DNA of 64,000 nt, taken from assembly GCA_001598975.1 (NCBI GenBank), contig BBXU01002910.1:62001-126000 (forward strand), written 5' to 3'. This document shows, piece after piece, positions 4,513 to 60,200 of the stretch. The position numbers and the translations under genes are program-made. Every line of letters starts with the position of its first letter. Positions within the stretch are counted from its first letter, which is position 1. The notes below the pieces were generated by a model that searched no databases, had not been told where the DNA came from, and was given only the letters and a program-made list of their open reading frames with translations. This stretch comes from Parachlorella kessleri. Its lineage: Eukaryota; Chlorophyta; Trebouxiophyceae; Chlorellales; Chlorellaceae.

Positions 4513-6790
4513 ATGTTGTTGCATGCAGCGCTGCACCCGTCTCGGCCTCTGTTTGGGCAGGGGAAGCTGCACAAACTGGCTGAGGGCCTGAGTAGCAGCG
4601 GCAACAGGTGGAGCCGGTGCTTCAGCCGGTCACCACCACGACCCAGCCCCAGGGAGTTGCTGCGAGACCGGTTTGAGACTTTGGTAGCGAGTGCCAAGAG
4701 CAGCAGAGCACTGCAAGAGCTGCTGGAAGAGCGGGAGGAGGACAACACCCCAGTAGGCAAGCTCAAGGCATAAGAGTGAACAGACAGAGACTGGGTCACA
4801 CTGAGGCGCCGGCGCCAGTCACCTCTTGGACGTTTTACTCTTATCTGATCAGCCTTGCTGCTTGGCATGTTGGTGCCTGGCATGGAAGGGGGTTGTATTG
4901 CGTTCATTAGGCTAGTGTCACCACGTAAACATACCTGTCCCACTCGTGCATCACCTTTGACATTGCTTACATCAACACCTAAGCAAGTCTCTCTCCTCCT
5001 GCGCTGTTGTCACAGCCACCAAAATCGAGTGGGAGTCGCCACTGAGGATACTGCAGTATCCTGACCCTCGGCTTCGTGCGGTCAACGCCAAAGTTGGGGT
5101 CTTCGATGATTCCTTGCGGCGGTTGACGGAGGAAATGTTTGAGCTAATGTATCAGTGAGTTACCCTGCCCTTCCGGTGGGGTGGGGGTAGGGTGGGCGGA
5201 TTCTGCAGCCCATCTTTGCCTTACTTCATAGGTTGAGATAGTGGCAGGCCCAATCGATTGCATTGCAACCTCCTGGACGGGGAGTCTGGTGCAGAGCAGA
5301 GCAACGTGTCTCAAAGACTATTTGTTTTTCTTGCTTCAGTTCCTCCCTACAATGTGAGCGTCCCTGCTCCGCATGTGTGTAGGGATGATGGCGTGGGGCT
5401 GGCGGCTCCCCAGGTGGGCGTTAACCTGCGGCTAATGGTGTTTAACGAGACGGGGGACCCCACGAGGAAAGACAAGGAGCTGGTGCTGGCAAACCCAGTT
5501 GTCGTGCAGGTAGGGAAATGTTATTTTTTTATATATACAAACCAGCCTCATGGGGTTGGTGCTGGCAAACCCTGTTGTGATGCAGATGGGGTTATGGTGT
5601 AGCGTTTCTATAACACATCACCAAGCTGCTGCAATCATGAGAAGGGAGCTACAAACCTAGGGGTCATGCTCACGCCGGTCGTGGTGCGAGTGGGTGGGCA
5701 AATCGGTAGTTGATGCACTCCTGGTAGTAGCTACCATACCGTGTTCTGATGCTCGGGCGGATGCCAAGTTATGGCTCCCGCTGCATGGCAACAAGGTCAT
5801 GTGTTAAGAGGCCTTGCTGCGGTGCACTGCAGATGGGTGGCGGGAAGGAGGTGTCTGAGGAAGGCTGCCTGTCCTTCCCCCAGATCTATGCGGACATAGT
5901 GGTGAGCGGATGCGGTGCTGGCTGGCTAGGTATCTAACCCTGTGAGCACCCCCCCTGTGAACACACGAGGCTGCAGACGGGGGGATGTAGTGCGGAACCA
6001 TGGGGCCACAACAGGCAGGGTTATCTTCGTGCACGGACGTCTGTGCGGGCGGGTGCTCCCTTGGTCATGCTTTAGCCTGGCTAGAGGTGGCATGTGCAGT
6101 GGTGAGAAGACCTGGCAGGGTGGTGTCAAGGGATAGGCTGGTCGTTTGCGGCATTGGGGTACTGTAGCCCAGCCCAGTATGTCCCCACTGCATGGCGGTG
6201 AAAGTCCGCTGTGGCTGTCTCATCCCTTTCCAGCCAGGGAGTGGCATTAGAGGCCGCAGCCATCTGTAATCATAATATCTTTCAGCGGCGAGACAATGCA
6301 TGTAGATGATGGTCTGCAAGTCACAACCTGGAACAGACAGCTTGGTCGGCAGGCTCATGCGCTGACCCTTGTTTTTACCGATCTTGCCTGGTACCGTTTG
6401 CAGCGGCCGGTCAAGGTGAAGGTGCGGGCCCAAAACGTGACTGGCAAGAAGATCTTGATGCAACTGATGGACTTCCCGGCTCGCATCTTCCAGCACGAGT
6501 TTGACCACTTGCAGGTGCGTTGCCACTCGCTGTGCTCCGTGTTCTCAGGGCTTTAGTATGGGGTGACCGCATGGATTCCAGGGTGCTGGACAGGGAGGCT
6601 GGCACCCTGCCTGTGAGAGTTTTGCTCGTTGCAAGCCTCACATCAAGAGGGTGGGGTTGTGTGTTTGCAGGGGACGCTCTTTCATGACCGCATGGACCCT
6701 AAGGTTTTGGACAGCGTGCGCGGGGAGCTGGTGGCCCTGGAGGAGGCATACCTGCAGCAGCACCCAGGCGCAGCAATCAGGAGATTGTGA
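4513..6790 (+). CDS. PDF1B: Organellar peptide deformylase (PDF1B-like)
   Basis: It removes the formyl group from N-formyl-Met of organelle-made proteins. Core exons are 5016-5154, 5383-5509, 5833-5901, 6404-6514 and 6671-6790 (TGA), all joining in phase. All three PDF metal/active-site motifs are present: GVGLAAPQ (motif 1), EGCLSFP with the Cys ligand (motif 2), and QHEFDHL, the HExxH motif (motif 3). The C-terminal GTLFHDRMDPKVLDS matches plant PDF1B. The N-terminal exon is tentative. An open frame from ATG 4513 has a transit-peptide-like start rich in Ser/Arg/Pro. It can join by a donor near 4690 to the acceptor before 5016, or by a donor at 4753 to a possible acceptor before 4988. Degenerate copies of two exons sit in the introns (5556-5585 and 6565-6593). 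Plastid or mitochondrial targeting is inferred. Confidence 0.88.
5556..5585 (+). repeat. Intronic echo of the PDF exon ending at 5509
   Basis: 26 of 30 bases match exon positions 5480-5509, up to and including the final CAG. The copy lies in the following intron, 46 bases after the real exon end. The base after CAG is A, so the copied donor is not intact. Confidence 0.75.
6565..6593 (+). repeat. Intronic echo of the last PDF exon
   Basis: 23 of 29 bases match exon positions 6686-6714 (coding DRMDPKVLDS). The copy lies in the intron just upstream of that exon. It is not in a usable frame and looks like a decayed duplicate. Confidence 0.65.
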
Positions 6791-18864: not shown

Positions 18865-21800
18865 ATGGGAACCGACCTAGGGAACGCCCTTAACGGGCTC
18901 TATGGTGAGTTGCCTGCCAGTACAGCAGCTGAGTGAGCTAGTTGAGGCCTATTCCTGCTCACGCGCCAGCCTCGGGCCTTACTGTGCTGTAGGGGGCGAC
19001 TTCGACTATACCTTCACGGAGGCTGAGCTCCATGACGTGCTTGGCTACATGGAAGCGCAGCAGTCGGGCGGGTTGGTGGAACCCTTGCCGTTCTACTCCA
19101 CAGCGTTGCAGTTCCAGGTAGGAACCACAGCTTGTTGAACAACCCTTGGCATTGCACTTCTCGTGTTCGTGGATGTGTCTTGTATATGAGAATAGGTTGC
19201 GGCCGGCAAAACAACCTGAAGGTTTCCTGCCTGCAGCCGCACAACACCTCCAGCCAGCAAGTGGGCATAGCGGAGTCGCTGGTGCCCTTGAAGCCGGAGA
19301 TGTTTGATGTGGTGGACTTGGGCCCGATGCCGCCGTGCCCGCCGGTATCCTCTGCCATGGTGCCAAGCGCTATCGCAACCCCACCGCAGCAGCCGCAATT
19401 GAACGGTGGAAACTACCATCCTCCTCCTCAGCAGCAACAGCAGCAAGTCAGTGGTACTGCCTACCAGCAGCCGCCCGGCATGGGGCAGACCGGCAGCAGC
19501 AGCTCCACAGGGGGTGGTGGAAGCGCGAGCGTGCCGCATGGCGGTGTGGTCGGGGTGCCGTCCGGCGCGGACCTGGCGGCGTCTATGTCGGGCGGCTCGC
19601 AGCCTGGGCCGCAGCTGCCGCCGCCGTCGCAGTTGCCGCCACCGCAGCCCCACACTTATCAGCAGTACCACCCACCGCCAGCTGTGGTGCGCCAGGCTGC
19701 CCCTCCCGTGCGGAAAGGTGGGCCCTCTGCTTTATTTTGGTGGCGATACTAGGTTGGTGGGTGCAGGGTGTCCTTTTTTTATTATTAGTGGCTGGGTGGT
19801 ACCGCTGATGTTAGGCTGGTGGCTTGGTGTCAGGTTGTGGCGGTGGTACCTGCCATCCTGCACCATGCTGCCGTCCGCAGGGCTGAGATGGTTGCTGTAG
19901 CCTGCACTGCCGACTGCCAAGCATAGCAATGCAGTGGGGGGAGGTGCATCGCTGTAGATTTGCGCTCGTTGTCCTGCAAGGCCTCAAGGGGTGGTGCCGT
20001 GCATGCAGATGGCAAGCCACATGTGAGCCACAGCACTGTAGAAAAGCAGCGCCGCGATCGTATTAACTCGCTAATCGATGAGGTGGGGGCACTCAATGGC
20101 AGTCACTATGCGTCATGGCCTGAAGGACCTAGGTAGCGGAATATGTTACTTTGTGTATTGGCGATACACATGGGGTGTACCCGACAGATGTCCAGCTGCC
20201 TGAATTTGAAAAGGCTGTTGTGTTAGTGGAGGGTCCACCTCTCTTCATGGCATTAGCCATAATTTTGCAGACTCACTTAGGTGGCTCCTTCTGGCTGCGA
20301 TCGGTGCAGCTACGGGAGCTGGTGCCTCCCAGCCGCGCTGATGCAGCCTCAGCTGCCCACCCACCCGACCCTCATGACACGAAGCGGCCAAAGCACGTGG
20401 TCCTGTCCGACACCATCGCCATGGTGAAGGAGCTGCAGGAGCGGGTAAGCAGGGCAACCCGGTGTGACTCAAGTGGGTTGACGTCTGACCTAGCTTCCCT
20501 GGCTCACGCTGCAGACTGGCATCGTAGGTTTTTGAGCAGGGTACCGTCAGGTCTATGGCTCCTTGTATACTTTCGTTGTTCTGTGCCTTTCGGGAGGAAA
20601 GGCCAGCTAGCTGTAGTCGTTATTCGACTCTGGGCCAGCCTGCTGGCCAGCGGGGTTGTTGAACACCTTGGGAGAAAATTCGAAGGTGTGGGCCCCAAGG
20701 CTTGTAGCGTTTTGTAGGGAATCTTGCTGGGTCAGCTATATCGCTTGCTCACTTCCCTCCGCAAGTTTGTACCAGCACCCCTTGCAAGTCTGCCGGTGCA
20801 GCTTGCTATGAGCGAGACTCAGCTGGCGCAGTTACGAGAGCATGAGGAGCACTGCCCCTTCCACGAGCACGAGGAGCACCAGGCGGCCCTGAAGGCAGCA
20901 ACTGGGGACAGGTGCGCCAGCTAGAACTTGCTTGGATAGCCCTGAATGCGGGTAGCGGTAACGTGCTGACGAGGAGCACCAGGCTGCTCGTAGGGTGGCA
21001 ACCAGGGATACCCACACCAACCAACCTTGCAACCTGCTGCACTCGTGTGTCTGTTGTGAGCGGGGCTGGGCCTCGGTGTTGATGCAGGGAGAATGGCGGG
21101 GGGCACGAGAACAGCAGCGGCAGCCGGGGGAGCCACCCGGAGCTGCCGCATGCCCCTGTTGGCCACCCGCCGGTGGCCGAGCCCACAGTACTGGTAGAGG
21201 AGGGAGAGGCGGGGTCCATGTATGTCAAGGCAAGTGCTTGTAGTCAAAACCTTTCCAGCTTGCTGCTGGTGCGCCTGGCAGTACGCTGGGTGTATAGCCT
21301 CTGCAAGTGCTTGTATTGACTATGCCAAAGTCAGGGCTTGACCTGGCATCTGTGTCCAGTGGCGCCCGTAAGGTTGCGCTGACTCTGCTTGAAGACAGCA
21401 CACTGCGTGGGCTGCTTATCATGCGGCTGCAGTGTTCCTGGGTTGGGACCCCGTACCAGGTGTGTGGTAAAGCATTGCCCTTGTCTTGAGGTGATGGGGA
21501 ATTGCTGCACCTTGCCTGCCAGCTGGCAGCGGCATACCTCCCACTGTCTGTAAGAACTTCAAATCGACTGCCGGCCTATATACACCCAACCACTTACGTG
21601 GACGTCACCTGAGGCCCAGCGTCCTGCGCTCCCCACCCGATGCAGATCAGCTGCAAGGACCGCCACGGGCTGCTGGCCGACCTTGTACGGGCTCTCAAAG
21701 CCGTGCCAGTGGAGATTGTGACGGCGGCCATCACCACCACACCAGAGGGTGGGGTGTACGACGTCTTCCAGGTTATTCCTGATCCGGACGGGCCCAATTT

Positions 21801-22481
21801 CAGCCGGGAGGAGGTGGCTGCGCGGCTGCAGCAGGTGCTGGCGGAGCAGCACACAGGTGGGTAGGTTGTTGATTGGGTGTTCCTATGGCGGGGGGGTCTA
21901 GTGGTACAGGGGTGCTTGCGGGGCACCGGGCGGGTGGCGTGTGTGGGTTGAGGGTGCGGAAGTCCTCCTGGCTGCAGGAGATGCTGGCGGAGTAGCTGTT
22001 GGTTGGTGATAGCAGGTTGAAGGATGTCTGTACTGTGGTAGGGAGATTCCGCAGTGGCTAGTGCATGGATTGAATCGGTGCGGAGTCTTTGGGTGGCTGC
22101 TTGGTGCGTGCGGCGGGCACCATACGGGAAGTTGGGTGGACTTTAGGGAGGGGCGTGTGTAGGGAGCATGGGCGACCAGCCCTAATGCAGCGGGGGCTGC
22201 AGGAGCTGTGGGGGTTTATTGGGGAACGTCCGTTGGTTATTGCTGTGCTGTTCAAGTGTGCTCCTGGTCAGTCGTGTCCCATCTTATGTGTGTCATGCCT
22301 GATCCCGGGGGTTCGCTGCTGCTTGGTGTGGGATGGTGCACTTCGAGAAGTTTTGTGTTGCAGGGCAGCCTTGTTAGCAGCCTGCAATGTGTAGGCATTG
22401 CCCGTTGAGGTGCCATTGCCTAGCAGCTGTGGTCCTGTTGCTGCTCTTGCAGGGGACAAGCGGAGGCGGGACAGCCTGTAA
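18865..22481 (+). CDS. bHLH transcription factor with C-terminal ACT-like domain
   Basis: Exons: 18865-18904, 18993-19117, 19237-19717, 20009-20082, 20310-20444, 20802-20911, 21088-21229, 21646-21856 and 22453-22481, about 448 residues. Exon 3 codes a long Gln/Pro/Gly/Ser-rich region. Exons 4-5 code the bHLH: basic region and helix 1 (STVEKQRRDRINSLIDE), then helix 2 (KHVVLSDTIAMVKELQER). Exon 8 codes an ACT-like fold (ISCKDRHGLLADLVRALK, PEGGVYDVFQV), as in plant bHLH-ACT regulators, where it mediates dimerisation. Intron 7 has a GC donor (GCAAGT at 21230). Two ends are possible. Reading past 21856 gives TGG then TAG at 21864. Splicing at that GTGGGT to the strong acceptor at 22452 adds a basic end (GDKRRRDSL). 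I prefer splicing because the next bases contain an echo of exon 8, which elsewhere marks introns. Confidence 0.85.
20968..21010 (+). repeat. Intronic echo of bHLH exon 6
   Basis: It matches the end of the preceding exon (20868-20911), including an exact 15-base block CGAGGAGCACCAGGC. The rest is degenerate. It lies in the intron directly after that exon. Confidence 0.7.
21970..21995 (+). repeat. Echo of bHLH exon 8 end
   Basis: 23 of 26 bases match exon positions 21824-21849 (coding LQQVLAEQ). One change converts a CAG codon to TAG. It lies about 115 bases after the exon, which supports this stretch being intronic. Confidence 0.7.
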
Positions 22482-25483: not shown

Positions 25484-28400
25484 CTAGCTTACCGGCGGCA
25501 GCAGCGGGGCCACCTGAGCTGCCCACCGCTGCAACGCTTCCCGTGCCTCCTCCTCCGGCATGGCTTCAAGTGGCAGCTCTGCCAGATCAAGCAGCAGCGC
25601 ACTCAGCGGACCCTCCCTGCTCTCCTGCCGGGCTCGCTTAGCCTGCACCAACGGTTTATGCCACCACTTCAGCAGGTAGGTACACCAACAATTTATGCCA
25701 CTACTCCAGTAGGTAGGCTTACCAGCCAGCTAAACGGGCTCCGGCAGGGATTGAGAGGGCTATGGTAGAGCTAAGCTTGCAGAAAGCGAGTTAACACCCT
25801 GTCACTCATGCCGCTACACACACCACCAGAAATGCCTTTGCAAACGTCTCAGCCATGTGCCGATGCCACCTCGCTACGCACACCACCAGCAATGCCCTCG
25901 CACACGCCTAGGGCATGTGCCGATGCCACCACCCACCCACCTGCTGCTGCTCCCCCTCGTCAAGCTCTTGCCGTTGCTGCTGCTGCTGTGCTGGCTGCTC
26001 CAGCTCCTCTGCCTTCCGCTTGGCCAGCTCCACAACCTCTGGTGGGAACTTGGCAAACTCGGCCACGTGGATGCCAAACGACTGGTCGCAGCCACCCTCA
26101 TGAACCTGCACAACCATGGCAGGGACTGGATCAGCACTTGGGCCAGCCCAGAGCATACATGTATGCGCATCCAGCCCTGTCAGTACAGTTTGCCTAATTT
26201 CCGTTCGTACTACCTGCACATGCATGGCAGAGACTGGGACAGCACTGTTTGCTGGGGTCTCGAGAAAGGCTAGGAAAGCCAAACCTAGCGGCGCTCTCAT
26301 GCACTGGTAGAGCACAAAGCACACACCAGGATGGGACAATGCCGGCAAGCTCCCCCGTCATCTGCCTGGCCTTGCTCTGGCCACTGTGCAGTGCGGCAGA
26401 AGCACAGCAAGCTGTCCCACCTGGTACAGCATGGTAAGGCTGCCCGACTGCTCATCGATGGCGCTGGTCACGTGCAGATTCTTCACACCCACTTCCCCCG
26501 TCAGCGCGGTAAGCTCGTGGAAGTGGGTTGCAAACAGCGTGGCGCACCCAATCTCCTGCAGGGCAAGGCCAGCTGTTGCTGACAAGGATAACTGAGCAAT
26601 GGGTGCAAGGGCCGCCCTCCTGGACACAGTAGGAAAGGGTATGTCTCCCATAACTAACATACCACTGGGCGCATGCTGATAAAGAAAAGAAACGGACACG
26701 CTCGCAGTAAAGCGCGTCACAACCAAGGGCTGCAGTATTCAGGTGTCTGACACCAAGCGAGCAGACCAGCAGGGCCTCACCCGCATCAGATGCTCTGAGA
26801 TGCTCCACGCCAGGGCCTGGCCATCGTAGGTGGAGGTGCCACGGCCCAGTTCGTCAATGATGACCAACGACTTGGAGGTGGCGCCCTGCCAACACCATTG
26901 CTACGCTAGTTTAGCTACAGCTTGCAGGAGAATGATGTCAGCGGAACCAGGCGAGGGCAGCCACTTGTTGAGGGCATACGATGAAGTACATGGCATTGTC
27001 TTGGGCAGCTCATCCACAGAAGGTCTGCCACCAGTGACCCTACCAGCCCTCCTCCAGCAACCAGCCGATCTGGCAAACCAGTGGGCCCACCTTGAGTATG
27101 GCTGCCGTCTCCAGCATCTCAGCCATGAAGGTGGACACACCCCGCAGCTGGCAGTCGCCGGCGCCCACGCGCGCAAAAATGCAGTCCCGCACCGCCATGC
27201 GAGCGGCGTCACAGGGCACAAAGCAGCCCACCTGGGCCAGGAGCACCGCCACGCCCACCTGTAGGGCAGGGCACCACGGGACAACAAAGTTTACGCTGCC
27301 TGCTACACTGTCAAACACCCACTTCATGAAGTCAAGCGCGCAAGATAGGCAGGAGCAAGGAGGAGACATGCTTGCGGTTGGCTGTCGGTTCGGCACTTGC
27401 CAGCGGCACCTAAAAGGATCTGCAGGCTCGGTGACAGCCCTATAGCCCCACTGCATGATGCAGTCGCATGATGCAGTCGCATGATGCAGTCAGCATCAAC
27501 ACGGCCACACCCCTTCCCATTCCCAAGTTGCCACTCGCCTGGCGGATGAATGTTGACTTGCCACCCATGTTGGGCCCTGTGATGACCTGGAACCAGCTCT
27601 CGCCCCGCCGCATGATGCAGTCGTTGGGTATGAACTCCACCCCGTCCTGGGCCTCCACGCAGGGGTGCCGGCACGCTTCCAACACCACCTCACCAGCTGC
27701 AGACAACAACAGGCTGCAGTATCTGTTCATGTGCCTTGCTCAACACAACATGGGCATAGGCATATATACGTATAACCCACAGCCAGCCGCCAGCCCCATG
27801 GCATTCCCTGCTGATGGTTAGTACTCATCAGAGTAGCAACTGCCAGGTTTTGGTGGCCGGTTTCAGGCCATCAGTAGATCTAACAGCCTGTCCACACACG
27901 CACCCTCCCCAGGGAGCATGGTTGGGCGAATGTACGGCTTGGGTGCCGCGGTTGACAGGTCGGCAAATGCCACCAGCACATCCAGCTCCGCCAGCAGCCC
28001 ACACACGCGCTCCCACACCTCGCAGAAGGTCGCCGCCACGCTCACCACCTGCAGCAGGGAAGGCAATGCCCGCCTCTTGAAGAACACTAGGTTGCAGAGC
28101 ACATGGAGCGATGTTCTCCTCCTGTTTCCCCAGTTTTCTGGTGGTTTGTGTATGTTGTTGCTCTTTTGTACAAAGCCCCTACCCTTCATGGAAGAGAAAC
28201 CCCTGTGCAGCCCCTGTGCAACAAGCCATTGCCCCGCCTGCTCCGCACGTGCTGCCTTCCCCTCATGCCCCCCGCTGTTCTTTGCCCCACAAAGTCGCCG
28301 CCCCCTCTTCAGTGACGACCCTGTAACTGCCCTACCTTCCGCTAACCCCAAGCCCTGCCTATGCCCTGCACAATGCTTGCACCTCAAGCCCAGCCCCCGC

Positions 28401-31400
28401 CCGCCCACCGGGATCACCGCCTAATTTCCTTCCCTGCAGGCACCTTGCTGCACCACGTCGATGACCGCTCCCCTACCCTGCCTACTTCTTGCTTGCCAAG
28501 CCAAGCCCCCGCCCGCCCACCTACCTGCTCCACCAGGTGCTGCTGGCGTGAGTCGTACTCGCCCGACAGCTGCTGCAGCCGGATAGCCGCCTCCTTCAGC
28601 GCCTTGCTGGTGAACTTGACGCCGTCACGCCGCGTCTCCAGCTCCTGGTACCGAACCTGCTTGCATGGGAACGGGGAGATAAAGACGTAACGCAGAATCT
28701 CAAGTGTTTTCCATAACGCCGAACCCAACCCTTCAAGTCAGGGAGCAGGGAGTTGCTTCAGGTGTACACCGCCAGCCAGCCAGCCACCCACCCACCATCT
28801 TCTTGCGGACGAGCTTCTCCTCCTTAGCCGTGATGCGCAGGCACCGCATGCGCTGGTTGGACACCTTGTGCCACTCCAGCCTGCAAGGCAGTCCAATGAA
28901 GGGAGCCACAGAGGAGGTTGATGGCAAACTAAGGATGAGGGGACACAGGGCAAGCCAAACCTGGAAAAAGCGGTCAGGGCGAGTCGGCCAATGCAACATG
29001 CCCAATCTATCCCCAGCATCTGTCTGTACTCTACATCTGAGTCCGGTCTGCCAGCAGTCTTGCTAACCACAAGATTTGCCAGTTGCTCTGGCTAGGTCAG
29101 ACTCACTTGATGGTCTTGTCCATGACCAGCCCCAGGTCCTTGGCTGCCTCACCCGCTAGCCGCACAATCTCCTGCTCAGCCTCCTCCTTACCCACCTGCG
29201 ACACGCCCAACAATGGCACCTCCTCGTAAGCATGCTCAATGTAGCCAAGGGAAATCCCCTAAGCACGCTCATCACTACCATGTATGACACACAGGGATTA
29301 TGGCACAACCCATGCACGTTGTAATACTGTCAACTAACAGTAGTGACAGCATCCAACTTACCCTCTACTGGGCCCCTTCAGTCCAAAGAGCAAGCCCTCA
29401 AAAGTGCGACAACGCACGCACACTGCAAAGCTGAGACGTCCAGATAGACATGAGCAAGCCAACACAAAAGGCAGTGTAGTTACCTGCAGGTCCCTCAGGT
29501 GGTCATCGTAGGCGGGGGCAATGAGGTACTCATCCGGCACCCGATCCAGATCCACGGCAGCCTCCAGCAGCTCCTCAAACTTACTGAGGTGCTCCTCATC
29601 GTGTGCTTCTGCTAGAGGTGTGGCGAACCTGGAAGAAGCCGAAAGTGGGCAGCCAACCAATTTTCTTGGCAAGCAAATCACAAGACTGAGACGCAGGGCA
29701 AGCCATGCTGTACAAGTGAACCCAGACAGCTGACTGGCCACAAAGTTTCGGCTATCCATATCTGGTAGGCCAGTTGTTGACAATTCTCTCATTATGCAGC
29801 TCTCATTATACAGCTCTCATTATCAGCAAGCTTGGGCTTTACGCACGCAACCACTGCAACTCACAGCTCCGCCAGCAGGCCCGCGTGCTGCCCCGCATGG
29901 CCCTCCAGCACCGCTTGGACCTGTGGCAGGCGGGACGAGGCCCGGTACAGCTGGCACAGGTCTGCCAGGCTCGCCTTCTGGCGGTCCAGCTTGCGAGCCA
30001 GGCGCTCAATGTCAGGCAGCCCTGCAGGCATAGACTATGCAAGTGTAACAGCTGTCATGAGCGGCCCAGTTACTTTCTGCTGGTAGCTGCACCCGGCAGG
30101 TTCGGGCCCACAGCGCCTTCAACCGTCCCACCCCAGCACTTTGAAGCCAGCAGCCGGCAAGCAAGCTGCAGCCTGTGCCGTGCCCCAAAAGTTTGCAGAA
30201 CTTACCCCTGAGGTGCATTTGCAAGTCCTGGCGCAGCGAGGCGTCCTCCACCAGCGCCTCCACAACATCATGCCGCCGCTTGATCTCGTCCAGATCCACC
30301 AGAGGCTGCTTCAGCCACACCTGCAGGGCAGGCGACCAGCAGGTTGAACCATGACATTTCCTAAGGCCTTTGGCAAATGCCAAACCTCACCCACAGTCAC
30401 CAACAAATACGGCCCCGGATGAGCTGTAACCCAATGCAGCTTACTGCGCCGCCACCCCAGTATCCAGGCACTCAGGCGAGGTCTTCATTTGGCAGGCAGG
30501 CAGCAGCAGGCATTCCCCACTTCCTTGCCTTGAGCAGGCGCTTGCCCATGGGTGTCTTCCCGCGGTTGAGGAGGCCGTAGAGGCTGAAGGTGTCGCTGCT
30601 GTCGGTCTTGCTCTTCAACACGTTGAGAGCACGCACAGCAGCAGAGTCCAGGCGCATGTACCGGCCTGGGCAGCACATACAAGCATACCAAGACCTAACA
30701 TCAGAAGTTGAAAGGCGCGAGGAGGTGCTGTGACATCACAGGAGAGATTGTAGTATCCAACCCACACGTCACAAGACTGTGCTGCATTAATGCTCAGTAG
30801 CATTGTTTGCAGCTTCCCCTCACTGCCTCACCTGTGTCATGCAGGCCTAGGGTGTATTTCCCATGGGAGCTGCTGTCACTGAGCAGCTCAGCAAAGGTCA
30901 GCAGACCTGCAGGGGCCAGGCTTGCAAAATAATGAAGCTGGTACACCAGGCCCCAGAGGCGAGACATGCCTGCGCTCAGTGCACCTCTCCCCAGCTGGCT
31001 CACCAGATTCTGGGATGTGCCGTCTGCAGAGTGCCCTGCAGACCTCGATCTACACAGCCTTGTGGTCACCAGCCGCGTCGGGTGTATCTTGCTCAAGTAG
31101 CATGCATGCTACGGCAGCTGCTGCTCCCTCCCATGTCAGTGCGGGCCGGATACTCTCCATGCAGCGGGCGCTCAGCCAGTGACATGTCTGCTATGCTGAC
31201 AGACCAACCAAGAAGCACGGCGTGCCTGCTATGGCGGCGGCTGCCTGCTGCCGCTCCAGAATGGGCCGGTACTGTTCCACGCAGCTGCCCCTCAGTAGCC
31301 GCCCCAGGTCCCCCTCCAGCGCCTTGGTGCTGAAGGCAGCCTTGGGCCGCTCCGAGCCCAGCGCGCCACAGCGCGACACCACGTCAGCAAGGCGCTTTGC

Positions 31401-37970: not shown

Positions 37971-37975
37971 TGTAA
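37971..37975 (+). terminator. Candidate UGUAA polyadenylation signal of the LpxC-like gene
   Basis: TGTAA about 183 bases after the stop codon, at a typical distance for a chlorophyte 3' UTR. The match is short, so support is weak. Confidence 0.35.
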
Positions 37976-38822
37976 GAGACACTTGTATGGAGCAGGGTGC
38001 CTTTTGAGTCAGCCACTGGTGCTTGGCGCTGCGAGCGGTGCGCCATAATTTAGCTGAGCAGAAGATGGCAGGATGTGCTGGGTCCCAGTGCCGGGTACTC
38101 ACCGTAGTTTTGAACGCACTAACCTGTACGCATCACTGCTGGCTCTCGAGGTAGCGATGCTGGTGGAAGAGGAGGGGTTTGCGGGTGCCACCATGTGGAC
38201 CCTTGTAACAATGCCGGGATTGCCTGTCAGTGACAAGTGTGGCAGTGCATTGCAATGTCATCAACAATGTTGGCCCCTGATCCTAGTGTTTATCAGAGCA
38301 TAGAACTAGTTGCTGCTGGCACTGCAAGGTGGCAGATTGTGGAGCACCGCTGACTGATACTAGCAAATGCAAGGACCCCGTGCTTCTCCCAGCCTGCCTG
38401 CAGTTTTACAAGTCTGGCCTACCGAAGCTGAACCCCAAGTGCTCACAATCGTTGATACCATATGTCAATGCACGGACATATTGAAAGCCACTGCCTACAG
38501 CATCATGTACACACCACATCAGGCCCTGCAAGAAAAATTCTATGAGACACTGACCCTGTCTCCTTTTAAGAAGGTGGGTTCTTGTGACATCGCTCCGACT
38601 AGAGCTGGGTACACAAGCCGTGCCCAGCACACAACTGCCTGGGTGCAGCGAGCCAGTATCGCATGGCCCGTTCCCCGAACAGCTTGCACAACACACTCCA
38701 GCACTCTAGTACCCACACTATTCAAGACTCAAAGAGGACCGAGACCCAAGCCGGCTATAACTGATCGCTGGCTGGCCTCGCCGGGCTGCCTGACGCAGCC
38801 GCCTGATGCTGGCCTGCCAACA

Positions 38823-38938
38823 GGCAGCCTGGATGGCCAAAGCTGCTGACAAGCCAGCCGAGGTCAAGTAAGGCCAAGTAGGCAGCCTGGATGGCCAAAG
38901 CTGCTGACAAGCCAGCCGAGGTCAAGTAAGGCCAAGTA
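38823..38938. repeat. 58-bp perfect tandem duplication
   Basis: Copies at 38823-38880 and 38881-38938 appear identical, so the duplication is recent. It lies in the convergent 3' region between the LpxC-like and PP1 genes, outside any recognised exon. Confidence 0.9.
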
Positions 38939-39019
38939 AGGCGACTGCCGGCTGCCGCCCCTGCTGCTACGCTGCCACCGCCTATCCTGCACCACTACCC
39001 TCCTCGATGCACAGCCGCG

Positions 39020-41672
<2,653 letters not shown>

Positions 41673-47564: not shown

Positions 47565-50500
47565 TCACAGCTCCAGGCTGACCACCTCGTCTGCAATTGT
47601 TTGGAGCCAGCCTTTCTTTGCATCCTTGTCCAGCGGCCACAGGTGGTTGCCTTCCACCCGGTGGCAGATGAAGGGCCCAGCGGTGAACTTCTGCCAGCCC
47701 TGCAGAGTTACAGCAGGCGCAAGAAAGGATCTAAGTGCTTCAGGGTATGTCACTTGCACGCATTCAGTCGGGGCCAGGAGGCAACTGACTGCTAGCCATG
47801 CAGTGGCAGATGGACAAGTGAATAGAGTGCCAAGTAAGCGAGCTAGTTGTTGCGAGCTGGAAAGAGGTGAGCTGAACCTTGGTGTGCTGTACAGGTGTGC
47901 CAGGGGCCCCTAGAGAGCGGGTCAGATAGTCGCGTGGCAAGCAGCACCACCCTCTTGCTCCCTCCATTACTTCCACCGCTTCTAAAGACAACATCTTAGG
48001 TGGGCGGGCTGACCACGCAGTCTGTTGCACTGCCACAGGGAATCACTGAAGATGATTAGCACCGGTTTCCTGCAGGTGGGCGGGCTGACCACGCAGTCTG
48101 TTGCACTGCCACAGGGAATCACTGAAGATGACTAGCACCGGTTTCCTGCAGGTCCACACAAACAGGCGCACCGCCCCAACAGGGACGCACCTCCACCATC
48201 CACTGCTGGATCTTGCGGTCCCTGGTCCCGTAGAAGGTTGTGACGGGGAAGGTGAAGCGACATTCACCTGCAGGCAGCAGCATGAGCAGGACATGTGCTT
48301 GGCCAGGGCTTACTGTTCCGCAGCCCTTGCTACCTCTGCACAAACATTTGGGCCTAGGTCGCAGGACTTGGATCCTTGGCAACCGCCGCTGGCCAACATC
48401 AGTTGGAGGCACTGATCAAAAAGCTCTGTTCTGTCCCTTAAACACATTATCCGCGAGGGAAGGCACCCCGACGTTCATTGACTACTAGCTCACCAGTTGT
48501 TGCTTGAAGCATGTTGCTGAAATGGACGAGCGCAAAGGACGGTCACCTTGCACGCCTAGAGCATGCCGAGGGGCATGGAAGGTGTACGACCTGCCCCACA
48601 TTCCAAGGCAGCCAGATAAGCACACCCAACCTCTCTCCAACCCTCCCTCCCACCAGGGTAAGCAGATCCTGGTGAACACACCTTGGTGAGTGAAGCAATA
48701 CTCGTCAAAAATGGTGAAGTCTGCCCGCATGATGGGCTGGTACATGCCCCACATAGCGTTGGAGAAGACTATTTCATTGACATCCCATTCGCGGCACTCA
48801 TCCTGCATAAGGTCGGGTAGGACGCAACTGTCCTCCTTTGCACTGGACCATGGGGAGGCGATCGATGTGACCCATATGACGGCAGCACACACTGCTGCTA
48901 CTTACCTAAACTTCTGCACGGCGCTCTCCAAGGCCTTTCGCAATTGCGCAGGCCAGGAGGAATTAGAGACCCTTAGCCATGCAAAGGCCCTCACTCCTTG
49001 TGCAGCGCCCACAACACCCCTCATATACCGCAACTCTCCAGCAGCGCTGCTTGCCCAGCCCTGTTTACCTTGAAGTCCTGCTCTCCTAGCAGTCGCTGCT
49101 GCCTCCAGGGCCGCTGCACCTCTGGCAGGTCCGGGGATGCAAACCCTGATAGGAAAGCGTGCCGCGGCATAGGCAGCCCTTGCTGGCGGGCGGCACACAG
49201 AAACTCGTAGGCCACCCAGGTGCCCACGCTGTGACCCACGATCTGCAACAGTTACAAGTAGAAGGCAAGAGTCACGGTTGGTGCATGGCTACAACGCACT
49301 TGGATGCATGGGTACGGATGGTCGTCAGCCTGCTCATGCGCTTGAGGGACCGCCGTGTAACCCCAAATTCGCCCCAAGGGTTGCCTGCCTGGTCGCCTGG
49401 GCACGCCAAGAACAGACGGGCCCCGCAAAAGGCCCAGCTCAAAAGTGGGTATCCTCACAAACTGCCACGCCTGCTGAGCCAGTGGCTCACGCCCACATGA
49501 CGCCACATACAACATGCGAGCAACTCACCACATACGGCACGTCGTACAGCTTGGACCCCACCACCTGTAGCACCTGCTGGCCCAGCTCCTGGGCTGTGGT
49601 GATGAAAGCCTCCTTGGCGCGGCCATTGCGGCCAGGTGGCTGCACCGCCAGGCACTCTGCGCTGTTGGCGCGGCACCAGTCCTGCGGGAACAAGCCCATG
49701 GCAGGCCAATGAGCCAGGTGATTAAAGCAGTGTGAACATGTGTTTGCCGGGGCAAGAACAGCACTTTAGTCTAAAATTGTACCACGACCTATGCAGGCTG
49801 CCGTGAGCTCCCAATGTGGGGCCAACAAAGACTCCAATGGACTATGAAAAGAGCAAGAGGTTGTGGGTAAGAAAGGTCTGTAAGGTGTAAAGTCACTGGC
49901 AGCAAGCATGCGGGGCCAATGAATACATCGAATCCAGTTAATGCATCAGCTGCATAGGACAGCAGCTTCAAAGCACGTGTTTACTAAGCGGACGTGCACT
50001 CATAGCTTACCAGCAGGGGGCTAGGTGCCTTCCTCACCCCCGTGCCTTCACTGGTGTACATGTCCTCAGCACTACCGGCATTTGGGAAGCACAGCACGCG
50101 GAGCCTGCATCAATGCTTGGGGAGGACAGCTTGGAGGCGTGCTAAGTGCCACAGTGTGTAAGATGTATCAGTGACCGCCTTGGGGTGCCAACTATGCTGG
50201 TTCGGCTTTGCCTCTAGAAGGTGTAGCCTGAGCGACCAGTGCTTCTTTCCCAGCCAGTGGACCAAGAGGTCGTCAGGCAAGCAACACACCAAGAAGCTCG
50301 TTGCATGCCAGGGCACAGGCAGTGCTGCTGCCATCTCACCTGGGCTGAGCGCAGGCAGTCTTGCTCAGCTCAAGGCCAGGAAACCACTTGGCGAAGACTG
50401 CGGGATCAGCAGGAGCTATCCTAGCAGCCTTGGCTGGCAAGACCTTGCCGCAAGACTTAAAGTATTCTCGGATGGCGCTCTCCGCCCTGCGAAGTTGCAG

Positions 50501-51229: not shown

Positions 51230-54200
51230 ATGGAGCAGCTGATAGCCCTTCTCCAAGAGTTGAGCGCCTGTGGGCAGGCGCTGCAGGCAGCAGGGGAATC
51301 CGGGGACACTGGAGCCAATCTGCGCGCTGTGAAAGCACTGGCAATCGAATCTGGCCTTGTTGCGGCTACGAGGAGGGTGTCTGGGTGTGCCCAGGGCTCC
51401 TCGTTGTGGGAACACCTGGCCTCACTTCAGGTGCCACTAGCAGATGTATCCAGGTGCGTAGACACAATCCGCAAGACTGGAGCTAGTATTGGCGGCGAGA
51501 AATCCTAAGAACCAGCTCCTCTTACACTTAAAAGCCTTGTTGCAGGGGACTTGCTGGCGTAATGTCTCTTGGGAGCCAGCCACAGGCGTTGCTGGCCGCA
51601 GCGGTATACTCGCACCTGCTTGTCACGGCAGGGTGCCCCGTGAGTACATCGCAGAGGGATATTGTCCTTGCATGCTTGGTTCATCTGTGAACAGCTAAAC
51701 CACTGCCCGGCAAGCCTTGCTGGGACGGGAGCTTGGGAAGCAGATGTGCAAGCTTCGGCGGATGCTTGCATACGTGTTTCCGCCTTGGCTAACTCTTCTC
51801 ACGCTTACCCGGGCGCACTGCTATCAAAGCGGTTACCTGCTGGTACACATACCTGCAGGTCTTCTCTCTGTTTGACCGAGCAACCTGTGGTGCCTTCCTC
51901 AAGCTGTTGAGGGAGACAGCCTCGGCCCCGCCACGCAAGGCAGCCGGCGGCGGCGGCAAGGGCGGCAAGAAGGCAGCAGGCAGCGCTGCAAGCTCCCCAG
52001 TTGCCAGCGACGCCTTCACGACAGATGCCATGGATGTTGACGGGCCAAATGACGACCTAGGCAGCGATGGAGAGGGTGTAGAGGGACCCTCCCAGCGTGG
52101 CAGCAAAGCTCAGCAGAGATCCCCAGCAGGCGTAGCAGCCCTGGCGGAGCCTCTCGCCAATCTGGCAGCACTCCTTGCACGGTTCGGGCTGCGGGATCAG
52201 CCGGACACTGTAAGGAGCATCGCTGAGGCGGCTGCAGAGGTGTCCAGGGCGCCTACTGTGCCTGCTGAGGCTGCTGAGGCCAGCTATGCAGTGCTGGCGC
52301 AGCTGCTACAGCCCACCCACGGCAGTGTGCGGGAGGTGAGTTTACAAGGGCTCCGTGGCAGGCTTGATGGGAGAAAACCGGGAGGGATATTTGGGTCAGC
52401 TATGCGGTGTTAGCACAGCGTGGCCCAGGCGGGCTCTTCCTCTCACCGGGTACATGGTCTAGGTTAGTATGTTGTATATCAATCGGGCTGTCCTTGCAGG
52501 CTGGCAGCATGTAAGTGCTCCTCAACACTTGCGGCAGAGCAAAGTTGTTTGAATGTTGGAGTTGTGAGCTTGCTGCGCTGCTTGAGGCGGCAAAGTAGCC
52601 AATATCTCTGCTCTACTGCACTGCACTTGCAGGTTGCCGCCATGGTGTTCCGGCTGCTGGCCAACAACATACTTGGGGTGGGAGAGGGTGGCAAGGGGCC
52701 TACAGTTGCTGCTGGCACACGCCAAGCCGCTGCCCTGAGGGCACGGGTGGTGCAGTTTGCTAAAGACGCCCTCAAGTGAGTCGGGTTAAGTGGTGGCCTA
52801 ACCTTGTGAGCAATCTCTCAGATGCCCGAGAATGCCCCCATTGGTTTCACTGGATGGGACGGGACAAACTTACCTTCCCTTGTTGCCTTGTAACCTGGGT
52901 TGGTTGGTGTTGCATCCTCAAGCAGGCGTACTGCTGTGTACAGGGTTTCCCACGAGAGTCGAGAGGCAGTGGCTGCCCTAGCCCGCCATGTCGTGCTCAA
53001 GGCCCCAGACAAGGCAGAGTTCAGGGCAGCAGCAGTGGAGGGTGCTGTGGCGCTGGTGCTGTCGCTGGATGCGGGAGAGCAGCAGGCGTTTGTGGGCTTT
53101 GTGGCGCGGCTGTCACGGGCGCCCAAGGCAAGTCTGCGTATGTGTTGGGGGCTGGCATGGGAGGAAGGGGTGCTGCCTCAGGCCCTTCAGACGTTGCATG
53201 GAATCCGTGCTTGTGCGGCACATTGCAGCTCCTCCTGGAGCTGCTACTTGATTATGTCATTGGGGAAGAAAGCCAAGCTCGTGGCACCAGACGGGCTGAG
53301 AGTGTACATCACCTCCCTGCCCGTCACCATGCGCCGCACAGGCTGCATCATTTCTCACATATGTGGGGTGTTCCTGTGTAAGTCAGCCAGCGGCAGATGG
53401 CGGTTGAGCTGTCGCCGGTGCTGTGTAAGGGACCCTTGCACGCACGGGCTGCGTCAATTCCTCACATTTGTGGGGTGTTCCTGTGCAGGTCAGCCAGCGG
53501 CACATGGCGGTTGAGCTGTCTCCGGTGCTGTGTAAGGGACCCTTGCACGCACGGGCTGCGTCAACTCCTCACATTTGTCGGGTGTTCCTGTGCAGGTCAG
53601 CCAGCGGCAGATGGCTGTTGAGCTGGCGCCAGCGCTGCTGCAGTCCCTGGAGGACCCCTTTGCCCCGGTGGAGCTCCCACAGCCCCAGGCAGCCGACGGC
53701 AAGACCCCGGCTGGGGCTAACAGCAAGGGCAACCTCCTGGTGGATGGCCAGGCAAGCTCTCAAGCTATATTACCACACACTTGTCCCTCCTGCCGAGGAC
53801 TTCCACTTGTTCAGAGCCCGTCCTGGCTAATCGGCAACTGCAATATGCTACCTTTGCCCAGGGCGTGTTTGTCGTCGCAGTTGGCACCCGCCACTGTTTC
53901 AGTGGCTACATATGATGTTTGTCGACTTCACGGTTGATGCCACACACGAAGGGACTGGTACTGGTGCAGGAGTTGAGCGCGGTGCCCTGGGGCGCTGTTT
54001 GCCTGGCAGTGCTGGTCCAGCGCTGCGGGGACAAGTCAGCGGCTGTGCGTGGGCGGGCCATGCAGCAGCTGGCTTGCGTGGTAGGGGAGTGGACCTCGTT
54101 CAATGGGGGCAACTCCCGTGAGGAGGTAAGATATACAGTCTTGCATGGCGGAGAGCTGGCAATGACGACAGCAGGTCGGCAGGCATTGTGGGGGACTGAA

Positions 54201-57200
54201 GATCCTTGGATCAAGCAATTGCAAGGGGAGCGGCGGTACTGGGGCTGTAGGACGGTGTGAAATGCCATTGCATGGAAGCGTTTGTGGGACTTGAAGATGA
54301 CAGCAACCACTGTGTTGAGATGGGAAGCTTGATGGCAGCTCTTGCTGTTGGACGTGCTTGCAATGTACGGTCCTGCAGCAAATTGATAGCTTCCAAGGAT
54401 TTGCTGCTCAGAAAGCAACATGTGATTTGCGGCTGTGCCTGCAGGTGCGCTTCTGTGCTGCGCTGAGCCTAGCCCATGAGGTAAAGCTGCAGCCCCAGCC
54501 GCTGATGGCTGACATTCCGGGCCTTGTCTCTCCCGCAGTCGTCTCCCCTGCTGCCACGGACGAGCCAGGTAGGTGGCTTGAGCAAGTTGTGCAGGCTGAT
54601 TTAGTTTTGCGGGTACAATGCTGGCTGTCATGGGTGCATGGCACTCACACAGGAGCTGTTCATTGCTGACAGACATCATCATGTCATGTGCTTTCTTTGA
54701 ACCTCAAGCCCAGCCTTTGTCATACCAGCGGTCAACAAGCCGCCATTGGCTCCCGTCCTTGTGCTTACACCTCTCCACCCAACTGCGCTTCTCATAGGCG
54801 ACACCCCCATGACCCTGGGTGACCCCACGCCCCACCCTCGCACCGGCGGACGGCGCCGCGAGGGCGCCCGCACAGCTCCCACGGGCCGCTCATCTCGGGG
54901 CTACTCCTGCTTCACAGTGCCAGCCGCGCTGCTGGAGGCGGGGGAGGCGGACCTGCGGTCACTGCTGCACCTGGCGCGGAAACGCTGCAGTGACGAGAAG
55001 GGGCAGGTGGGAAGCGCAGACATGGGCTTTTAGCAATGCAAGGCTGGGTTTAGAAGCTGTTGGGGAGGCCGACCTCCACTTGCTGCTGCACCCGGCGCAT
55101 CTGCGCTGCTATGGTGTTAAGGTGCCGGGATGCCCAGGGTGAGGTAATTTACGACAGCTGTCATCATGACAACCGCAGGCATAGGGTAAGTTGGCGCGCT
55201 GGCTCCCCCGGTTTATAGGAGGTTTGAGCGGTTCTTACTATGCTGTGTTGCAGGTACGCAAGGCTGCTGTGCAGCTGCTGGAGGCCCTGCTTGTCATGCG
55301 GTCGGCGGGCGTGCAGAGAACGCTACCCCAGGTGGGCACAGCCATTCCTGGTCATTGGGACCGTCCTTGTTTGAGTGGTTGGCAGCTGGCTAGCAGGCAA
55401 GGCTTCCCCGGCCTTAGTGGGCCTGCCCTCGACCAGTGCATGGCTTCCTTGGTGCTTGACCTTGTACCCACCCAGAAAACAATGCACCTCGTGACTTCAG
55501 TATCACATGCATCGCTGCATCGGCCCTCAAGAAAACACTCTGCTGCGCAACCAGCAGCTTAGCAGTGTCCTTAGCGCTACCCCGCCGTGCTGCAGCCCAA
55601 GGACATGGCGGCCATCGAGGCCGCAACCAGCGATGCCCTGGTCAGCGTGCGCAAGGCGGGGCTCACAGCCGCCCACTCGCTGCTTAAGGCCTTGCCAGAC
55701 CAGCCGGCAGTGGCTGCTTTGTGGGTGCGAGCAGCACTGCCGCTTGTCAGGTGAACTGACACTCATTGATCCCCACTCCTTGTCAGGACAGAGCGTCGTT
55801 ATCAGAATACCCACTTGCTGCTGGAACCCCGCTCTTCCTTGGCCAGCATGCCGCCAGCACCAGCCCCTCGTAAAACAAAGCGGTGGCTGTCTTGCGCTTG
55901 ATGCAAGCTATGTTCCACCCCCCAGCTCCCCTGGCCTGGCATGTCCGAGGGTCGCAGGGTGAGCTGCTCCGGCGCTGCAAGCCCTGCTCTTGAACAACTC
56001 CACCTGAGCAAACCCCACTCTTCACAAGGTTTCCTGCTTCCTAGTTTTCCTGATTCCTATTGCCTGTAGGGATGTTGAGGCCAGCATCCAGGAGGCCGTG
56101 CTGGACCAGTTCCAGGACCTTGTCACCGGCAGGGCGGTCGCAGCAGGGGCATGCAGCAGGGAGGGTGGCCCCACCTCATCTGCACTTAAGGCAGCCGAGG
56201 AGCTCAGGCCCATCCTGGCAGCCTTTGCGACCGGTAGGTTGGTGGATGTGGGGGGCGCAGGGACAGTGGTGCTCTCACTATGCATCTAGGCTTGCTGCAG
56301 GTGCTGACACCCTGCGATGCTTGGTTGATGGTGTGTGTGGCGTAGGACCGCTGCAGCTCCTCAAATGAGCGAGGGCAGAGCCCAGGTCTGTGCTGACGGT
56401 CTTGTCCAAACCGGGTGTGTATCATAATTGAGAGAGTGTGCAGGTCGGCCTGTCTTATTTAAGCTGCCCTGTGTCAGGGCGGCAGAGAACCTCCTGCTGA
56501 GTTTGTGCCCAACCTTTGTGACCTGGCCACTATTGCAGGCGGTGGCGCATGTAAGGCGTGCGTGGCAAGGGCCTGCTCCAAGCTCAAGGCCAAGAGCCGC
56601 TTGCGGACCAAGCAGGCTGCGACTGGGCTGCAGCACATCATCCTGGGCTTGGGTAAGCTGTGCGTACGGTGATCGGTTAAGTCATTTGCTGACATGCACC
56701 AGCCTGCGATATTGGTTTAAGTTATTCGGGAGCTTCAGGTCATATGCAAGCAGCACATCTGTTACCGGGGGACACCCTGTTCAGGGTATTGGCACCCTGC
56801 GCAGCGACAAGGATGCTTGCCTAACCCAAGCCAAATTCTTTCACCACCCTGCAGGCAAGCCAACCAACGCATTCCCCCATGAAGCAGCAGCTGCAGCTGA
56901 CTCAGTGGCCGGTGCCTGGCTGCTGTTTGCCGAGGTGTCTACATTGGACCCCGCAGCACCATCCTGGCAGTTCCTGCAGGAGCAGTGGGATGCGATCACC
57001 ACTCACCAGGTTGGTCTGATTGACAGTTGAGGGGCCTGGAGGCTTGCATGGTGCGCCCCTGCTGCCCCCTTTGGCCGAGGAGCATGATGGCGCTTGCTGC
57101 TCATTGTGAAAGCAGCCTGACTGGATATCTAATTAAACAATGTATCACCTGGGGCCAGACACGGTCAATGATGCGTATTGGCAGATTAAGGTCCAATAAT

Positions 57201-60200
57201 TTGCCGGCTGTCTGCTCCTTGGCCATTGTTTATGGGTGGCCATGGTCAAGGAATAGTGGAGAGGGACTATACCAACGCACATGCCGCCCCATGGTACCCG
57301 CTGTGCAGTCTTTTCACATCGACCTGACCGAACCAACTCAGGAATACACACATCCATCACAAGCACACTCCCCAGCCTCAGGTCCATTCCGTCTTATCTG
57401 CAGGAGAACGGTGGAGTGGGCGCTCCCGCTGCTGCTGTCACTGCCGACAATGCGGCCCAGCTGCTCAAAGTGGTTGCAGCCGCCGCCGCAGAGTTTCCCG
57501 CCGAGCAAGCCCGCCAGCTGACAGAGCAACTGCTGAGCACGCTCCGCGGCTTCACGCTGCCGCCCGCTGCGGCCGCAGCGCACGTGGCGGCGGTGGCGCG
57601 GCTCTGGGGCCGGCATGGGGCGGGGGAGGGCAGCAGCAAGTGCGGCTGGGCACAGGAGCTGTTGACTGGGGCTGAAAAGGCGAGTGAGGGGGAAGAGGAT
57701 CAGCTGCTGTCATTTTAACCAGCGCATGGGTCGGACATGGCGGCCCCATGTCTAGAACCGGCGGCGGGACTGCGGAGCTGACCACGTGGTTCTCATGGCA
57801 TGGCTGGGTTTGAGCCTGCATGGGCGATGCAACCCAATATACATAGTGCAAGCAGCATCGTTTTTCAAAGACTTAAACATGCACGGCTGCCACCTTTGGC
57901 TGCAGGTTCTGGGAGACTATGTAAACTCCCAGCAGGTGGGGCGTGCTGTGGAGGGCATGCAGGGCGACGACTGGCGGGCTGCCGGCGCGCTGTTCACCGT
58001 GGGAGAGGTGCGAAGCACACTCAGCCAGCCTAATTTCTGTTCCGGCAACCTCTGCCGCCTAACCTTGACAGCCCTCGACTTCCAGCATAGTTTCGTGCAA
58101 GTCTCCTCTGCGTATGGGTGGTCTGCGGTCGCTGGTGAAACAAAAGGCCAGCAGGCTACTCAGCTGCTATAGACCAACCATGCCAGATTGGATGCCAACA
58201 TGTGCATCGCTACAGGTGGCTCTCCTGCGCTTGTGTAAGCCCTCCGGCAGACTCGTCACCCTTGTGCAAGCCATGACTGCCTCCCGGCTGGGCCCCTCCC
58301 ATCTTGGTGGCTCCAGCCAGGCTAGCCAGGGGCTTAGTCAGGGCCTAAGCCAGCAAGTCACTGCCAGCCAGGCTGCCATCCTGGACGGCGTTGCGGGCAT
58401 GGAGGCGCCCGGCACTGTGCAGGTAGGGGCGGTCCGCAAATGGCTTGGGCAGCAACCAGTATTGAAACTGTGGCGAGGGCCACGAAAGGTCGGGGATACA
58501 GCACGCGCATCCCAGCTGGCTGAATCTAGCCTAATTGTTTCGTATCTTCAACTCTTATATTGGTTGAGCAACCCTGGTGAAGGCTGCAGTTCCCTCCCGA
58601 CCTGCAGACCCATAGCTGGGTGGCCCTGGGGCAAGCTGTGCCTCACTTCAAGCTTTGCTATGAAGAAACCTACAAAAGGCTGCAGCTTCCTCCCTACCTG
58701 CAGGCCCACAGCTGGGTGGCCCTGGGCAAGCTGTGCCTCACCGACGAGGCGCTGGCCAAGAAGTGTGTGCCGCTCTTTGTCCAAGAGCTGGGCCGGGCGC
58801 AGCAGCCGGCTGTGCGCAACAACATCATGGTGGCCCTGGCCGACCTTGTCATCAACTACACTGCACTGGTGCGTGTCTCAGGGTTCGCGGCCAGCGGGCA
58901 CGGGACTGCAACTACGCATCAAGCGCCTGTGGTGTGCAACAACATTGTGTGGACGGGCTGACCTCATTGTCAGCTACACTGCGCTGCTGTCCTTAAATTC
59001 TCAAGGCTGTCCCAGACAAAGAGCCTTCAATGGATGAAACCAGTTGTCCAGCACTGTGCTAGCTATGTGCAGGTGGATTCCCACGTTCCCCGCCTGGCAG
59101 CTTGCATCCGCGACCCCAACGAGCTGGTCAGGACCCAGGCGCTAGCACTGCTGGCCAACCTGCTGCAAAAGGTGGGCAGGGTTGAGGTGTTGCTTCGAGC
59201 CGTTCAGCGGCAGCAGTCATGGAGCAGCACTGAGTGCAAGATTATTACAACGCACAAGGGTGCAAGGGGCAGGGGCTGTCCAATGTTGATGACTTGAATG
59301 AGCAAGCACCTGCAGGTCGTCCACCGGTTTGCTGGCCGGCTCCTTCCTCAAGCCTGCCCCCCATCTGGGCTGTTGCTCACCACCTTGGATGCTGCAGGAC
59401 TATGTCAAGTGGCGTGGGCCCCTGTTCCACCGCTTCCTGCTGGCCCTCATCGATGACTCGACGCGAGTAAGGGCCCTGGCGGAGTACTTGCTGGGCGACA
59501 CCATCGCTACCAAGGTGAGCAAGCCATATAGGCTTGTGACTGGGAGGTGCGGTATTTGTTAAGGTAGCTCCTCTTGCCTTCGTTTGCCCACACCTCATTC
59601 CAAAGTGAAGGATGCGTGTTTGTACTAGCGGCGGCAAACCAGCTCAACCGCCTTGAGAGAACCTCTCTGCAAATGCTACACAAGATCATCGAGTTTCTAC
59701 TCCATGCAGCTGCCAAACCTGGCATACAACCATTTTGTGGAGGCCCTCTTCGTGCTCAACGACTGCCAAGCGGGGCTGCATGGCGGTGCCAGCTCAGCCG
59801 CAGCAATCTCTGAGGGCGCAGGCGGGGGCTCTTTCTGCCTGAAGGGCGCCTCGCCCCTGGTGCGAGCCAAGCGGGACGCCATTTACAGGTGAGGTGGTTG
59901 AGTGGCAATCCGGCATGGAGGGCTATCCTCTTGCCCTCAAGCCCTCTGTGACCGAGCTGGAGGGGCCTTTCTCTTACACACTTTTGCCCGTGCAACGTCA
60001 TGCGCCCTGCTTGTCAGGCGCGCACGCACCCCAGTGGTGCAGCTTGCAGGTCCCTCGGTTTTGCCCGCTCTAACAGTCCATCCACCGTGAACAACCCTGC
60101 AGGGCGCTGCTAGTGCGCATGTCACCCGAGCACAAGTTTGCCACAGCGGCGCGGCTGTGCCAAGAGGTCCTTGGCGGTGCCGCTGATGGGGCGCTGCCGC

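Follow-up and report, generated by a model that had tools for sequence, protein, structure and literature searches.

Diverged copies of exon edges in introns of Parachlorella kessleri as probable remnants of short tandem duplications across exon-intron borders

The introns of PDF, bHLH, MSH2 and CAP-D3, four genes located in a 64-kb stretch of DNA from the green alga Parachlorella kessleri (the window; positions 62,001-126,000 of contig BBXU01002910.1), contain partial and diverged copies of the neighbouring exon edge, which are referred to here as echoes. The assembly comprises 50.9 Mb in 1642 contigs. The window was analysed together with 229,818 further bases, giving a sample of 293,818 bases (129,708 of them from the window's own contig), which represents 0.6% of the genome and whose stretches were picked by contig number, in addition to the window's contig. 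Genes were modelled with a hidden Markov model trained on the sample itself, in which the acceptor signal TGCAG is strong, as is typical of green algae; it returned 52 genes with 541 introns, of which 520 are 40 nt or longer, and all exons and splice sites given below are its predictions unless an alignment is named.

Support from Pfam or solved structures extends to MSH2, PDF, bHLH, CAP-D3, SQD1, a formyltransferase and the M1 peptidase gene L016. Pfam detects the condensin subunit over a 188-residue part of CAP-D3 and the peptidase over a 299-residue part of L016, and also supports the epimerase (SQD1), the formyltransferase, PDF and bHLH. The best solved relatives of PDF and SQD1 are chloroplast proteins. 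Both echo junctions of PDF are gap-free against peptide deformylase 1B, and the SQD1 model is gap-free over residues 71-463 against the solved SQD1, which we take to be that of Arabidopsis; therefore, the coding copy in these genes is the exon. The MSH2 model aligns over residues 13-926, with several gaps, with a solved Msh2 that is presumably human. At least one border is misplaced by the gene finder, that of MSH2 intron 27300-27510, where misplacement explains an excess of 23 residues over Msh2.

In PDF (forward strand) the end of exon 3 and the first intron bases (5473..5515) recur at an offset of 76 (5549..5591), where the former donor GT now reads AT; the recount gives 26/30 matches between 5480-5509 and 5556-5585. 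A piece near the start of exon 6 (6685..6714) recurs within the preceding intron at an offset of 121 (6564..6593), with 23/29 matches between 6565-6593 and 6686-6714. In bHLH (forward strand) the end of exon 6 (20869..20908) is copied at an offset of 100 (20969..21008; 32/43 on recount), and the end of exon 8 (21824..21850) at an offset of 146 (21970..21996; 23/26), the latter copy carrying a stop in the frame of the exon.

CAP-D3 (forward strand) presents the most extended case, a 107-nt tandem array of 2.8 copies (53335..53637) comprising an acceptor site and an exon start. In this array the exon itself forms the final copy, the first copy is without the acceptor AG, and the whole occurs at a single place in the genome. 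The array unit adjoining exon 6, to which the array was trimmed for the closer counts below, gives 77/107 matches. The units carry an acceptor-like TGCAG, which the first copy has lost, and about 43 nt beyond it, as counted by eye, a donor-like GTAAGG. The end of exon 9 (54941..55007) is echoed at an offset of 121 (55062..55128; 47/67), and exon 18 is echoed on both sides: its acceptor site and exon start (58661..58726) at an offset of 96 with the acceptor AG retained (58565..58630; 54/66), and its end with the donor (58838..58871) at an offset of 118 with the donor GT now CT (58956..58989; 26/34).

MSH2 (reverse strand) contributes the weakest echo. The exon piece directly before the GPNMGGKS region, located by the Msh2 alignment (27602..27623), has a copy at 27445..27491 that has been multiplied further as a 13-nt tandem repeat; the core matches 14/14 and the identity is 91% over the 22 bases 27445-27466, which lie inside that repeat. 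The Msh2 alignment and the sequence suggest that the intron holding this echo truly extends over about 27259-27538 and is of the GC-AG type. Another echo, which is absent from the sequence-only reading that drew attention to this locus, was found in MSH2 intron 30907-31204 by gapped local alignment (score 27): with coordinates derived by hand, 31100..31175 copies the end part of exon 31205-31433 (31220..31295, from the alignment). The sequence-only reading had counted 26/30, 23/29 and 23/26 matches for three of the pairs, exactly as the recount does, and the repeat search places its pairs at or near the positions it gave. It had also claimed at least eight such introns in four genes; nine of the 128 window introns pass a score of at least 17, all of them in the genes it named. 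The intron after bHLH exon 8 is missing from these nine because the gene finder sets a small doubtful exon before the echo.

The excess over chance was measured by aligning exons of at least 15 nt to their own flanking introns (990 exon/own-intron pairs, 520 introns), with introns of similar length from elsewhere (ten shuffles) and the own reverse complement as controls. The excess of exon-to-own-intron similarity expected by the sequence-only reading is present: at a score of at least 17 there are 24 own pairs, in 22 introns, against a shuffle mean of 2.0 (highest single shuffle 5) and four in the reverse complement, and at a score of at least 20 there are 16 against 0.3 and one. At the lower of these thresholds the window alone gives 10/251 pairs against 0.2 in shuffles and the remaining sample 14/739 against 1.8. 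Only the adjacent intron is clearly enriched. At a score of at least 16, the adjacent intron matches in 34 of 990 pairs (3.43%), whereas introns ranked second to sixth match in 4/899, 6/803, 2/711, 1/624 and 4/551 pairs (0.16-0.75%); at the same score, direct repeats of all compartments, coding repeats included, give 54 independent events at near offsets against six at far ones. The echo observation is thus confirmed, and it is not special to the window. Echo-bearing introns make up 9/128 in the window and 13/392 elsewhere (P=0.08), and 12 of the 19 sampled stretches are without any echo. Beyond the window, clear echoes are present in SQD1, at offsets of 106 and, for a third copy, 217, as well as in L016 (C1100:1-10000), where 3 of 21 introns are echo-bearing (P=0.05); at least four border echoes, at offsets of 95, 112, 142 and 210, were observed within the 10 kb of L016.

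For closer counts, 19 of the 33 exon-intron alignments were picked by eye, two of them being copies in one SQD1 array; the 14 set aside were of low complexity (three), from a coiled-coil gene (two), short and weak (four) or further offsets of arrays or exons that were represented already (five), and the gapped MSH2 echo lies outside the 33. The echoes copy one exon edge, mostly with its own splice site: as the sequence-only reading had noticed, the copies often span the border, and 14 of the 19 alignments cross it into the intron, at nine donors and five acceptors. The intron sequence has been copied along with the exon, and therefore the template was DNA and not spliced RNA.

All but two of the 19 alignments have offsets between 46 and 157 bases. 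In a separate count of offsets, covering 21 exon-intron pairs, 12 have offsets of 80-149, five of 200-399 and none beyond; expressed per 100 offsets, there are 20 pairs at 80-99, 20 at 100-124 and 12 at 125-149, then 4, 3 and 2 in the later bins to 399 and 0 beyond that. Pairs of non-coding sequence (n=37) are spread over a far wider range, with 23 below 125 and 14 at 150 and above. The exon-intron segments are 78-94% identical. The decay series of exon echoes described by the sequence-only reading as starting from perfect copies is therefore not seen in that form, since the near-perfect duplications of the window (38822, 47998) are without exon sequence.

The differences between the copies indicate which one is constrained. 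Across the 19 alignments, exon-echo mismatches amount to 10.6, 9.6 and 25.8% at codon positions 1, 2 and 3 (third against the rest, P=1.6e-6), and this concentration at third positions shows that the exon copy is under selection. Non-synonymous changes affect 40 of the 78 changed codons, and a stop occurs in one. The splice sites of the echoes have largely survived: GT is kept in 7/9 and AG in 4/5, so that 11 of the 14 border-crossing echoes retain a rival GT or AG, at 46-217 bases from the predicted real site. This is about what an identity of about 85% gives without selection, and with 11 of 14 sites intact a selective removal of rival sites was rejected.

We propose that the echoes are very probably the intron-side copies of ordinary short direct tandem duplications that straddled exon-intron borders, whereby introns were lengthened, with no sign that any was created. 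A duplication of about 100 bases would happen to straddle a border. If it covers the exon end, the donor and the intron start, use of the upstream donor would still yield the old protein; if it covers the intron end, the acceptor and the exon start, use of the downstream acceptor would do the same. In both cases the extra copy would end up within the intron and drift freely, while the exon copy would stay under selection, and each event would lengthen the intron by one unit. Splicing can pass over the additional copy, which may be why border duplications are tolerated. Which splice site the cell uses is predicted here from the gene models, and the duplications putatively originate from the repair of staggered breaks or of nicks lying close together. 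Duplications confined to introns seem to have arisen in the same way, and the repeats within exons are mostly in frame; the unit is a multiple of three in 10 of the 12 exon-exon repeats, as in coding repeats that keep the frame.

A preference of duplications for exon borders was considered and is unsupported. A 100-base unit placed at random touches one border in 27% of cases and lies wholly in an intron in 44%, and border-straddling events make up 14 of the 28 border and intron-only events against 38% expected at random (P=0.24), a ratio that excludes 12 exon-exon, five intergenic and two mixed events. The counts can therefore be explained without any particular attraction of duplications to splice sites. 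Border copies should in addition stay visible longer than intron-only ones, one of their partners being conserved. The lengths of the introns are consistent with growth: the 22 echo-bearing introns have a median of 330 nt and the other 498 of 258 nt (P=0.013), so that the two medians are apart by roughly the length of a duplication unit.

Several observations weigh against this interpretation. The fit of sizes is loose, as 5/21 exon-intron offsets are at least 200 and 14/37 non-coding offsets at least 150, some of these long offsets being second offsets of one array and some maybe chance. The exon-side duplications of the sample include no near-perfect one, so that the youngest stage is visible only away from exons. 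Third codon positions differ somewhat more than the intron positions aligned alongside them (z=1.9; stratified odds ratio 2.1), which would be a departure from plain neutrality, although the excess is not significant; for the same reason it was not accepted as a hint of coding echoes. The longer introns might simply offer more target for duplication. Finally, the splice sites on which the proposal relies are predicted ones.

Four other explanations have to be weighed. The sequence-only reading had proposed tandem duplication across a border as a record of intron birth or growth. Several stages of decay and the growth part agree with the results, whereas birth is not supported. In the model of Rogers and Hellsten, an AGGT-bearing exon piece is duplicated in tandem and the two AGGT copies become donor and acceptor; the model is established in other systems according to the part of a review considered here (PMC3443670), and tandem duplications do occur in the present sample, including one with suitable motifs. 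This 76-nt duplication (47998..48153, reverse strand, 99% identical, with 4 nt common beyond one unit), in which AGGT opens both units and occurs a third time directly after them, nevertheless sits inside a predicted intron. A birth would leave a donor flank matching the acceptor flank at an offset equal to the intron length. Among 516 introns compared with five permutations, this signature appears at a score of at least 8 in 96 own cases against 81-102, at 9 in 38, slightly above all five permutations (27-34), at 10 in 14 against 9-16, at 11 in five against 2-8, and at 14 in one against 0-1. At a score of at least 15 it is found in 0/516 introns, a threshold at which simulated births, assumed to have 60 bases of homology on each side, were detected in 172/172 cases up to 30% divergence and in 163/172 at 35%. 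Recent intron birth is therefore not supported and is a very unlikely source of the echoes; births beyond about 35% divergence are possible, as are very young ones that would still be modelled as exon, although the exon-exon repeats mostly have units divisible by three, as in-frame coding repeats do. A virtually negligible alternative is that the echoes are introners or dispersed repeats of another kind that resemble exons by happenstance. According to the text available from PMC9860276, introners are reported mainly in fast-evolving lineages such as green algae. Introners would be expected as near-identical copies across many genes. In contrast, all five echo-bearing stretches searched for in the 50.9-Mb assembly, skipping simple repeats and very common words, matched their own place and no other gene (the SQD1 stretch matched in addition its adjacent source exon).

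It is decidedly improbable that the echoes are functional alternative exons or splice sites under selection. The retention of GT or AG in most border-crossing echoes, the single stop among the changed codons and the high third-position differences could be taken in its favour. However, that retention is near the expectation without selection, about half of the changed codons are non-synonymous, the CAP-D3 array unit of 107 is not a multiple of three, and none of the 19 ungapped alignments has both borders of an exon (14 have one border and five have none). Mutually exclusive duplicated exons, by comparison, are copies of a complete exon including its two splice sites. A most improbable account invokes chance similarity, low-complexity sequence, repeats internal to coding regions or errors of assembly. 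About two of the 24 pairs at a score of at least 17 are expected by chance, and two pairs come from a single gene (C1485a 49174-58983) that is coiled-coil-like and internally repetitive, but the excess over both the shuffle and the reverse-complement controls speaks against this account, and assembly error would not yield exon-intron segments of 78-94% identity.

The proposed origin by duplication across borders has counterparts in known systems, which are cited here from parts of the respective texts. Among the insertions of rice, tandem duplications are the most frequent kind, with an enrichment at 50-200 bp; as a share of events they begin at 70%, fall off above 125 bp and reach 5% by 200 bp, and the authors ascribe them to the repair of adjacent nicks (PMC7971508). 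The copies described here are likewise direct, adjacent and local, and their density follows the range of 50-200 bases with a fall above about 125, despite the longer offsets discussed above. Furthermore, in a small set of four young near-perfect duplications, none of which contains any part of an exon, the overlap exceeds one unit by only 1, 4, 5 and 7 bases, which does not resemble slippage between long repeats. The echoes differ from the rice events in being copies of various ages in one genome, located at exon borders, for which the route through repair is putative. Small tandem duplications that arise at breaks via Pol alpha-primase in mouse and human cells belong to the same mutation class and are short (<100 bp) insertions, and the text covered makes no link to introns (PMC8355091). 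With the AGGT model (PMC3443670) the echoes share the tandem duplication involving exon sequence and the copy left in the intron, whereas here a border that already existed is part of what was duplicated, the flanks of donor and acceptor are non-homologous and no new intron is seen. The nearest single case is the RdRp gene of potato (PMC4974935), where tandem duplication of a segment that includes an intron-exon junction led to a new intron and to the insertion of an exon piece. An existing junction was duplicated there as in 14 of the 19 alignments here, and a second duplication of 83 bp within an intron in potato corresponds to the intron-only duplications of P. kessleri; the difference is that the predicted gene models here show an unchanged protein. 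One 107-nt unit of CAP-D3 could become included in the transcript as a small exon that shifts the frame and, as in potato, might seed a new exon-intron pair. The literature searched yielded no paper that describes introns growing through border-straddling duplication, which is no proof that none exists.

The window also contains other repeats. A single MSH2 intron (reverse strand) contains a 37-nt duplication with no exon part (25646..25719) and a 60-nt duplication (25812..25930). A perfect 58-nt tandem duplication is located in predicted non-coding DNA at 38822..38938, on the reverse strand if the strand is taken from the neighbouring gene model, whose end exons are doubtful; it is probably 3' untranslated or intergenic, and it is possibly very recent or an effect of assembly. 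Degenerate CTGACTGACCGACC-type repeats occupy positions 1048-1330.

What do the echoes mean for the introns of this alga? It is possible, though doubtful, that they reflect a steady ratchet of intron lengthening in the lineage, in which borders would accept units about as freely as introns do, at about 100 bases per event, with intact splice sites as ready-made alternatives and a series running from fresh to faded copies. To our knowledge, the lengthening of introns is less documented than their gain or loss. Growth and birth are separable here by a simple count on raw sequence, as 22/520 introns match their own exon at a score of at least 17 and 0/516 carry a clear birth signature. Exon echoes are of use as markers, since one of the two copies, the exon, can still be read and border duplications are thereby recognisable after intron-only ones have faded.

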